From: Mesohalobacter halotolerans
GTDB taxonomy: Bacteria > Bacteroidota > Bacteroidia > Flavobacteriales > Flavobacteriaceae
Assembly: GCF_006120725.1 (NCBI RefSeq)
Contig: NZ_SWMU01000002.1
Span: forward strand, 372,001 to 436,000
DNA: 64,000 bases
Direction of reading: 5' to 3'
Part shown: positions 1,433 through 2,200 of the stretch, piece by piece
Layout of the letters: every line of letters begins with the position of its first letter
Position numbering within the stretch: position 1 is the stretch's first letter
Made by a program: the position numbers and the translations under genes
Notes under the pieces: model-generated
What the model saw: only the letters and a program-made list of their open reading frames with translations
What the model was told of the DNA's origin: nothing
Databases searched by the model: none

Positions 1433-1581
1433 AAATTCTATTTTTTAGAATTCGTCGTAATAGAATAGGATCGCTTACAAAAGCTTTTGATATTTGATGT
1501 TTGGAGCATCACATCATTGGACAGGATTAAAGATTCTGATGGCAATCAATGCTGGAAACCTACCCTGCCGATCAGGCGGAT

Positions 1582-1613
1582 ACAAAACCACTGCTATCGC
1601 AGTCTTGGTTTTG
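1582..1613. repeat. Hairpin, possibly the old terminator of a decayed tRNA
   Basis: The arms ACAAAACCA and TGGTTTTGT flank a second inner stem (CTGC/GCAG), forming one long imperfect hairpin. On the minus strand it lies directly after the decayed tRNA copy at 1623-1706, where a tRNA terminator would be expected. A further short palindrome (CCTG..CAGG) follows at 1564-1576. Confidence 0.5.
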
Positions 1614-1622
1614 TGCTTGTCG

Positions 1623-1706
1623 TGATCGCGACAGAGCCTGTTCCGAATATCGGAAATTCGAACCTGTGACCGTTCCGACATTGACGTCGGGTTGCTCTAT
1701 CCAGCT
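1623..1706 (-). pseudogene. Decayed tRNA-Arg copy lacking its 5' end
   Basis: Compared with the intact tRNA-Arg at 1987-2060, this stretch keeps the 3' acceptor strand (TGATCGCGACAG on plus, 1623-1634), the T-arm (17 identical bases, 1656-1672) and part of the D-arm (14 identical bases, 1693-1706). The anticodon arm is replaced by a different palindrome (CCGAC..GTCGG, 1675-1690). A second palindrome (TTCCGA ATA TCGGAA, 1641-1655) is inserted between acceptor and T-arm. The 5' acceptor strand is missing, so it cannot fold as a tRNA. The GIY-YIG reading frame at 1697-1945 ends inside its D-arm sequence. Confidence 0.8.
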
Positions 1707-1945
1707 ATGAGTTTCTCTATGAATTTTCTTGATTTTTTTGACTTAATTTCTCGCTCCCGGGCATAAGCTTCTTGTTTTGTATCAAATCTTTCAAAATAGA
1801 CCACTAACCAATCGGTGGTTCTTCCCGTAAAACCTTTATGATTTGCGTTGTGTTTTTTAAGTCTTTCCTCTAATGAAATACTTGTATAACCTATATAATA
1901 TTTATCAAGACTACTAGAGTACAATATATAAGTATGGTATTTCAT
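1697..1945 (-). CDS. GIY-YIG domain endonuclease-like protein
   Basis: The 82-residue protein is a stand-alone GIY-YIG nuclease domain. It has YTYIL-like residues (HTYILYS, 4-10), the second half of the signature at YYIGYT (16-21), the catalytic-type Arg in the ERLKKHN helix (27-33), and a conserved Glu in [13 protein letters not shown] (60-72). It resembles the UPF0213/YhbQ type and the small excinuclease-like ORFs common in Bacteroidota. It lies directly behind the intact tRNA-Arg and its terminator, and its last codons (LIAG, then TAG) are formed by the D-arm sequence of a decayed tRNA-Arg copy. No promoter of its own is evident. Such proteins cut DNA; that this one acts at the tRNA locus is my inference. 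Confidence 0.87.
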
Positions 1946-1950
1946 TTTCT

Positions 1951-1984
1951 AAAAACAAAAAACCTTACATCTCTGTAAGGTTTT
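1951..1984 (-). terminator. Terminator of tRNA-Arg
   Basis: On the minus strand a perfect 11-bp stem (AAAACCTTACA with TGTAAGGTTTT, 1959-1984) closes a 4-base loop and is followed by a T-rich tract. It starts two bases after the tRNA 3' end and fills the whole gap up to the GIY-YIG start codon at 1945. Confidence 0.85.
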
Positions 1985-1986
1985 AG

Positions 1987-2060
1987 TGATCGCGACAGGA
2001 TTCGAACCTGTGACCGTCTGCTTAGAAGGCAGATGCTCTATCCAGCTGAGCTACGCGACC
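1987..2060 (-). tRNA. tRNA-Arg (anticodon TCT)
   Basis: The minus strand folds into a complete cloverleaf of 74 bases. The acceptor stem GGTCGCG pairs with CGCGATC, with discriminator base A. The D-arm contains AGCTGGATAGAGC. The anticodon stem TCTGC/GCAGA encloses the loop CTTCTAA, giving anticodon TCT, which reads AGA and AGG. The T-arm is CACAGG-TTCGAAT-CCTGTC. The CCA end is not encoded, as is usual in this phylum, and the tRNA CCA-adding enzyme is present at 14151-15581. A terminator follows immediately. Partial copies of the same tRNA lie on both sides. Confidence 0.95.
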
Positions 2061-2115
2061 AGTTTAAAATGCAATATATCAAATATCACATTTGTAAATT
2101 CAATATTTCAAAGCT

Positions 2116-2146
2116 GCCTGTCCGTCCGAAGCAAAGCGGAGGCGGA
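2116..2146. repeat. GC-rich imperfect palindrome next to tRNA fragment
   Basis: The stretch contains TCCGTCCG and CGGAGGCGGA as imperfect inverted arms around AAGCAAAG. It is strikingly more GC-rich than its surroundings and abuts the tRNA 5'-end fragment at 2147. Short interspersed palindromes of this style occur widely in Bacteroidota genomes; whether this one belongs to a known family cannot be decided from one copy. Confidence 0.5.
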
Positions 2147-2158
2147 AGCTACGCGACC
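2147..2158 (-). pseudogene. Fragment of tRNA-Arg 5' end
   Basis: Twelve bases (minus strand GGTCGCGTAGCT) are identical to the first twelve bases of the intact tRNA-Arg (2049-2060). The match stops exactly where the GC-rich palindrome begins. Together with the 5'-less copy at 1623-1706 it could represent the two halves of one interrupted ancestral tRNA gene. Confidence 0.6.
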
Positions 2159-2170
2159 TTATTTTATTCC

Positions 2171-2200
2171 AATTCGTATTCAAACCAGTGTGACCGTTCC
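2171..2200 (-). pseudogene. Degenerate T-arm-like tRNA fragment
   Basis: On the plus strand AATTCG, AAACC and TGTGACCGTTCC occur in the same order as in the T-arm of the decayed tRNA copy (1655-1676), separated by small insertions. The last twelve bases are identical to 1665-1676. This suggests yet another, more decayed tRNA-Arg copy upstream of the functional one. Confidence 0.45.

Follow-up and report, generated by a model that had tools for sequence, protein, structure and literature searches.

Tyrosine-recombinase genomic islands have tRNA genes as their target, with a 3′ tRNA fragment lying next to the intact tRNA, and Seg and I-TevI proteins possess a separate DNA-binding domain beyond the GIY-YIG domain. 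In the cleave-and-rescue element, a synthetic design, the rescue copy is altered against cutting by the nuclease. Among the closest known systems is SegB of T-even phages, described (PMC13096335) as a GIY-YIG homing endonuclease that cleaves within tRNA genes and whose activity is required for tandem amplification of tRNA-Tyr together with segB. For arrays of chromosomal GIY-YIG genes and pseudo-tRNAs, no report was found in the titles and abstract openings of the open-licence literature, among the matches listed. Here, Bacteroidota chromosomes are described to carry nuclease genes anchored at specific tRNA genes amid hairpin-scarred tRNA copies, and the pattern of these arrays is suggestive of a nuclease that would both break its own tRNA gene and multiply it.

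The stretch of DNA analysed (the window) comprises 64 kb of contig NZ_SWMU01000002.1 of Mesohalobacter halotolerans, and all parts of the tRNA locus described below are on its minus strand. The sole tRNA in the window is an intact tRNA-Arg(TCT) at 1986–2060 (ARAGORN; Rfam at the gathering threshold). Upstream of it are, in order, a putative promoter-like motif, TAATTTTG (2320–2327; 267 bp 5′ of the tRNA), a decayed remnant of a tRNA-Arg copy recognized by eye (2178–2200; approximately tRNA positions 43–61, partly the 12-nt repeat D7), the 5′ end of a broken tRNA-Arg copy (2147–2158; positions 1–12, by sequence matching) and, immediately 3′ of this 12-base fragment, an imperfect palindrome (2121–2146). 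The TAnnTTTG motif of TAATTTTG, which we take to be the Bacteroidota promoter type, has the same sequence context in the loci L087 and L165. Between the tRNA and the nuclease gene lies a terminator-like hairpin (1959–1984; inverted repeat I10), followed by an open reading frame (ORF) for an 82-aa GIY-YIG nuclease (1697–1945; from the ORF list and Pfam), the end of which is inside a second broken tRNA copy. By sequence matching, this downstream copy retains tRNA positions 14–27 (1693–1706), 44–61 (1656–1673) and 63–75 (1622–1634); the hairpin ACCCGACGTCAATGTCGGA (1674–1692) replaces its anticodon arm, and a 21-nt insert with a perfect 6-bp hairpin (1635–1655) interrupts its T-loop. All the parts that the initial annotation had described were located on the minus strand as it had laid them out, and its description of the downstream copy as lacking the 5′ end holds but is to be refined by the missing anticodon arm and the T-loop insert. 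A 77-bp stretch further on, at 1527–1603, is 88% identical to one 3′ of tRNA-Arg(ACG) in the same genome.

The nuclease frame is positioned after the terminator-like hairpin, not in an intron or intein; an Rfam scan of the window at the gathering threshold found no intron family, and hence no group I intron in the tRNA. On the tRNA strand of the window, the GIY-YIG ORF is the only frame of at least 50 aa between the tRNA and the broken copy, and no integrase was found in the unit. The encoded protein matches the Pfam GIY-YIG family PF01541 with an E value of 8.8e-15, and among 45 proteins the residues G19, R28, H32, A60 and E64 are invariant and Y6 and Y17 nearly so; these are presumably the GIY-YIG catalytic residues. 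Its structure is predicted with confidence (mean pLDDT 94.1; pTM 0.82), the model spans one GIY-YIG-like fold, and no second DNA-binding domain was found in the 82 aa. The nucleases are under purifying selection (pN/pS 0.14–0.41 in 44 pairs; dN/dS, where computable, 0.05–0.20). The structures nearest to the protein by sequence are UPF0213 (1zg2; E 1.2e-15) and SLX1 (7cq2; E 1.8e-6), and a Foldseek search with the protein model returned 1zg2 at E 2.3e-4 and SLX1 at E 0.02. For four tRNA-linked proteins including that of the window, no PHROGs family was found at E 0.001, the phage Seg family included, and NCBIfam yielded nothing named. The window protein has 73% identity with one encoded beside a tRNA-Val gene of a Sphingobacteriales MAG (L199), and 54–56% with two Arg-TCT proteins of its own genus, a pattern that hints at horizontal movement of the nuclease. 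Relatives of the window nuclease are also encoded on two IMG/VR viral contigs found in one viral-contig scan (L306 and L307), the latter with a hairpin-scarred pseudo-tRNA-Arg 3′ of the GIY-YIG frame; ARAGORN called no intact tRNA on the available pieces of the two.

Elsewhere in the same genome, nuclease and tRNA genes recur together. GIY-YIG domains were found at 13 places, two of them within open frames of 454 and 600 aa. Eight of the 11 small GIY-YIG genes adjoin tRNA genes, namely Arg-TCT (the window), Arg-ACG (two), Arg-TCG (two, encoding the same protein domain), Asn, Cys and Ala, and the remaining three are elsewhere. As ∼1.2% of the genome is within 400 bp of a tRNA, the P value for 8 of 11 is 8e-14, although this counts tandem copies, which are not independent (by place, the association is 6 of 9). 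At tRNA-Arg(TCG) the order is tRNA positions 1–22, palindrome and GIY-YIG frame, the same three parts again, then the intact tRNA, with each frame extending into the next tRNA. At tRNA-Asn, three units of a broken 5′ part plus a hairpin (83-bp spacing) precede the intact tRNA, and a short GIY-YIG frame is located 3′ of it. Degenerate GIY-YIG frames are present at several tRNAs.

The survey was extended to the genus with a PF01541 search of 21 genomes, the matches listed and further fetched loci giving a set of 90 loci (two of which, L192 and L194, have no match with our own GIY-YIG profile). Among the matches listed, this profile delineated 91 GIY-YIG clusters, and 34 of them lie within 400 bp of an intact same-strand tRNA (median distance 48 bp), 10 of the 34 with more than one GIY-YIG frame; Asn, Phe, Met, Asp, Leu, His and three Arg isoacceptors are among the host tRNAs. 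Of the remaining 57 clusters, several (L143, L186, L196 and one of those in L146, the second) are accompanied by broken tRNA copies only, and the longest tandem array, with eight GIY-YIG frames at ∼364-bp spacing, is in L143. For the phylum, genome contigs were scanned with the Arg-TCT-type profile and the best 79 of 254 relatives were examined (L198, L201 and L254 among them duplicate genus loci, and L274 duplicates L273). An intact same-strand tRNA lies within 700 bp upstream of the GIY-YIG array in 64 of these best 79 (Arg-TCT, 27; Val-TAC, 27; Pro-TGG, 6; Val-GAC, 2; and two odd calls), with hosts from Flavobacteriales, Sphingobacteriales, Cytophagales, Saprospirales, Chitinophagales and Bacteroidales, plus order-less MAGs and one MAG labelled Chlorobiota. 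An Asn-type match at E 1e-12 was found in 15 of 296 genomes of the order, and the loci from this search adjoin Asn, Ala, Phe and some other tRNAs. The initial annotation had proposed to search GIY-YIG ORFs of this size for neighbouring tRNA genes and partial copies, and its link of the nuclease to one tRNA gene is supported, as is, in most arrays, the retention of an intact tRNA.

Unlinked nucleases were sought as a refutation. The other 15 of the best 79 lack an intact upstream tRNA: seven are marked as close to a contig edge, two show a tRNA or tRNA-like call on the downstream side, and six (L198, L207, L218, L260, L266 and L276) have neither. ARAGORN called no tRNA in L207, L218, L260, L266 or L276. 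The sixth, L198, is a P. salis array (the same as L094, on contig 14 of G009) that holds GIY-YIG frames and pseudo-tRNA-Arg copies without an intact tRNA. On the downstream side its flank is similar to the one at the tRNA-Arg locus of L097, and one guess is that the array could be the distal end of an island that entered at tRNA-Arg. In another genome (G008), an orphan 3′ part of tRNA-Arg(TCT) is located ∼21 kb from the intact gene (L110:1501–1552).

The nuclease clades track the tRNA isotype, as judged from two trees of ∼90 columns each in which many forks are unresolved. In a tree of 91 small GIY-YIG proteins, from which near-identical array members had been excluded beforehand, the isotype label changes 19 times (39.1 when shuffled), and proteins not at tRNAs cluster together (5 changes versus 29.9 shuffled). 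All seven Arg-TCT proteins form one group in this tree (SH-aLRT 96), and those at Arg-ACG and Arg-TCG are unseparated. A wider tree of 80 rows requires 8 isotype changes (26.4 shuffled) and 14 changes of host order; it places the Psychroflexus Arg-TCT proteins in two places, so the single Arg-TCT group is not firm. These trees bear on one explanation that we consider unlikely, in which ordinary recombination duplicates tRNA neighbourhoods in tandem, palindromic repeats break the spare copies, and the GIY-YIG genes are passengers or serve an unrelated task. Such passive duplication and decay is consistent with the degenerate GIY-YIG frames at several tRNAs, and the isotype link could in part be plain inheritance at one locus; however, isotype fits the tree of the nucleases no worse than host order does, and purifying selection on the protein also argues against a passenger.

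Whether relatives have uninterrupted sites, as the initial annotation had proposed to look for, can be read from the tRNA-Arg(TCT) locus of Psychroflexus, which is identified by a conserved upstream gene (∼280 aa; 69–94% pairwise identity). In five clean loci (L089, L093, L096, L098 and L103) the tRNA follows 22 bp after the promoter-like motif and fragments of at least 11 nt are absent, whereas in five filled orthologous loci (L092, L095, L097, L131 and L174) a broken copy is located between the motif and the intact tRNA, 102–303 bp apart. The broken copy in L092, whose sequence ends at the tRNA, is degenerate and was recognized by eye; in L108, motif and tRNA are 63 bp apart and no copy is clear. 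A GIY-YIG frame is found in L131 and L174, a degenerate one in L095 and none in the available piece of L097. In L174, the broken copy starts 20 bp after the start of the motif, at approximately the native position, and thus the intact tRNA is the displaced one. The window, L087 (in genome G010) and L165 share a different site, marked by genes for a DUF4199 protein and a glycosyltransferase. At this orthologous site G010 carries no GIY-YIG gene and no clear pseudo-tRNA, and the 162 bp between its motif and tRNA suggest that the site may be decayed rather than virgin.

The same loci bear on the model of the initial annotation, in which the two outer pieces are the halves of one ancestral tRNA cut in the D-arm and flank an insert of a nuclease plus a complete replacement tRNA. 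The outer pieces in the window (positions 1–12 and 14–75) indeed join end to end, the units at Arg-ACG and Arg-TCG do break after position 22, in the D-loop, and the filled loci agree with the model in that the insertion is present or absent at orthologous sites, with the native promoter now in front of the broken copy and the intact copy displaced further inside. In relatives of the same lineage, however, the upstream and downstream copies extend from position 1 to ∼57 and from ∼14–17 to 75, respectively; they overlap by ∼40 nt and share one gap, the anticodon arm. The two pieces as halves of one tRNA were rejected on this ground. A recoded rescue tRNA-Arg(TCT) was likewise rejected by direct comparison, since the window tRNA reads the same as that of G010, where the GIY-YIG gene is absent. 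Several broken copies on one or both sides are, moreover, common in arrays, and the model as a whole appears very unlikely.

Across the arrays, the flanking broken tRNAs lack a loop or an arm and carry a hairpin in its place, typically TCCCGA-loop-TCGGGA. Among 131 tRNA-locus pairs, the boundaries of the tRNA fragments recur by isotype: 28/46 in Val, 29/43 in Arg-TCT, 25/36 in Asn, 56/62 in Phe, 36/47 in Met and 22 in Arg-ACG and Arg-TCG (the boundaries 53 and 65 of Pro(TGG) are mostly T-arm cross-matches to pseudo-Arg). That breaks recur at the same loop boundaries across isotypes and orders also argues against passive decay. In 73 hand-picked hairpins, a selection that favours hairpins and from which real anticodon arms, near-repeats and some degenerate ones were excluded, the mean length of the outer stem is 6.5 bp, against 0.37 after shuffling, and 61 distinct loops occur. 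Pair 7 is paired in 68 of 72 (T-A, 30; C-G, 25; A-T, 13). On its own, such conservation of pairing is no proof of selection within the arrays, because dispersed palindromes are expected to look alike. A junction of the T-loop type, with GGTTC running directly into a hairpin, was found in 24 distinct cases at 17 loci, at least one of the cases being apparently no tRNA copy. Some scarred copies (L131:1738–1808, L114:1318–1397, L240:2724–2810, L224:2742–2819 and probably L202:2722–2801) are miscalled by ARAGORN as tRNAs of other isotypes (Phe-AAA, SeC, Pro-GGG, Lys-TTT and Ile-TAT).

The density of TCCCG..CGGGA palindromes is 1.40 per kb within 450 bp of the arrays and 0.048 per kb farther out in the same loci (∼29-fold; 124 loci that are related to each other, a few overlapping), and the corresponding values are 0.56 and 0.012 per kb in 38 genus loci and 0.17 and 0.057 per kb in 45 loci of other small GIY-YIG genes. 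The M. halotolerans genome holds 30 such palindromes (2 in the control), 12 of them within ∼225 bp of a tRNA gene, and the 64-kb window holds three hairpins with such stems (0–1 in three Markov controls). At three per window and 30 per genome, the scars as a mere sample of a dense genomic repeat were rejected.

These densities raise the question of whether the hairpin is itself the agent: a dispersed palindromic element might enter or replace tRNA arms, or an SLX1-like nuclease might cut the hairpin (as a cruciform), with hairpin breaks driving the duplications and the nuclease being retained for acting on hairpins. That pairing is kept as loops vary, the concentration of the palindromes near arrays, their excess over the control in the genome and the resemblance of the protein to UPF0213 and to the structure-specific nuclease SLX1 are all consistent with it, and IS1272 is reported to replace inverted repeats (PMC5678879). 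Isotype-linked clades, on the other hand, are unexpected for a substrate common to all arrays, the excess of hairpins at other small GIY-YIG loci is modest, and the Foldseek match to SLX1 is weak, so that we regard this explanation as improbable.

Fragments are not confined to tRNAs with a nuclease. In M. halotolerans they lie beside five of the six GIY-YIG-bearing tRNA genes and 10 of the 27 without a nearby GIY-YIG gene (one of the ten, Glu, being a neighbouring intact tRNA). Hairpin-interrupted partial copies beside GIY-less tRNAs of this genome were seen at L058, L064, L066, L067, L068, L069, L077 and L081; a short contig with the appearance of an rRNA operon carries two of these tRNAs, Ala and probably Ile. 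In a comparison of four genomes, made at unequal depths with up to 30 tRNA loci per genome and extra loci for G000 and G012, tRNAs with fragments number 2 of 31 in G027, 1 of 29 in G003, 15 of 33 in G000 (the Glu case among them being an intact neighbour) and 9 of 30 in G012. No tRNA-linked GIY-YIG gene was found in G027, the only one of the four free of the type; G003 has one Phe-type gene at a contig end, with an adjoining scar (L189). The pooled P value of 6.5e-6 treats tRNAs as independent across four related genomes and has little weight. A tandem tRNA-Met array in G003 (L352) consists of positions 44–56, a hairpin and positions 62–74, and a GIY-YIG gene is absent there. Scarred copies at tRNAs without GIY-YIG genes favour passive duplication, yet the low count in G027 next to those of G000 and G012, which have such genes, speaks against it. 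The pattern in these four related genomes is consistent with units that were lost and left relics, or with an action in trans.

Given the arrays, we infer that a free-standing nuclease anchored at a tRNA gene breaks that gene and that out-of-register repair leads to a SegB-like amplification, a reading that is the likeliest of those considered and whose chances of being right and wrong seem to us evenly balanced. The nuclease would break the adjoining tRNA gene, most likely in a loop-coding stretch, presumably the anticodon arm in the Arg-TCT/Val/Pro lineage. Repair of the break would then proceed by out-of-register recombination with adjacent partial copies. This would duplicate pieces of the tRNA to either side, whether or not along with the nuclease gene, and selection would retain the one intact tRNA that the cell needs. 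Partial copies with a hairpin for an arm would give no working tRNA and would probably offer no site to the nuclease. The same homology, present to the left and right, would allow the entire block to copy into an empty, cut tRNA locus, and the unit may also pass between cells.

Several findings weigh against cutting. The protein is a single small domain, with no separate DNA-binding part found that would explain its isotype specificity; scarred copies lie beside GIY-less tRNAs and, in G003, form the tandem Met array; and hairpins are kept as hairpins, beyond the need of merely disrupting a cut site. The intact tRNA inside the unit contains the presumed site, and nothing was found that would shield it from the nuclease beside it. 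By our own reading, the SegB motif RAWTSGAAC is the complement of the tRNA T-loop GTTCGAATC, and the broken copy in the window retains a match to it (by eye), so loss of the motif is not the rule. A further-reaching version of the cutting model, which we hold only tentatively, is that these are phylum-wide chromosomal selfish nucleases, with each lineage specialized on a single essential tRNA gene or a few of them; they would persist by cutting the tRNA gene while the element has the only intact copy and would leave hairpin scars genome-wide, in trans as well as in cis.

If the nuclease does cut its own tRNA gene, the arrays would represent a bacterial equivalent of the tRNA amplification that SegB drives and a minimal parasite tied to essential genes (most tRNA isotypes were found once in the M. 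halotolerans genome), and part of the small GIY-YIG ORFs and broken tRNA copies of Bacteroidota would be explained. Even without cutting, the swap of tRNA arms for one kind of hairpin at the same boundaries in several orders calls for explanation, and the scarred copies that ARAGORN calls tRNAs are a trap for annotation.

Set against known systems, the arrays share features with several. UPF0213 and SLX1-type proteins are the nearest to the nuclease by sequence and fold; within the same genomes, the tRNA-linked clades are separate from those of the small GIY-YIG genes located elsewhere. Tyrosine-recombinase islands differ in that the repeated units here hold a GIY-YIG frame or none, with broken copies on both sides in the arrays read. 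Stem-loops are reported to be targeted and replaced by IS1272-type elements (PMC5678879), and the replacement here is of only ∼15–30 nt, with no transposase gene apparent in the units read. Unlike the rescue copy of a cleave-and-rescue element, the intact tRNA-Arg(TCT) is the same as in G010, unaltered. SegB is alike in being a free-standing GIY-YIG nuclease that adjoins tRNA genes and in the tandem amplification of tRNA plus nuclease (PMC13096335); cutting is demonstrated for SegB and proposed for the arrays, and the proteins here are of ∼80 aa with no second domain found. What sets the arrays apart from the known SegB system is their setting in bacterial chromosomes, the tie of each lineage to one or a few tRNA isotypes and the hairpin-scarred tRNA copies.
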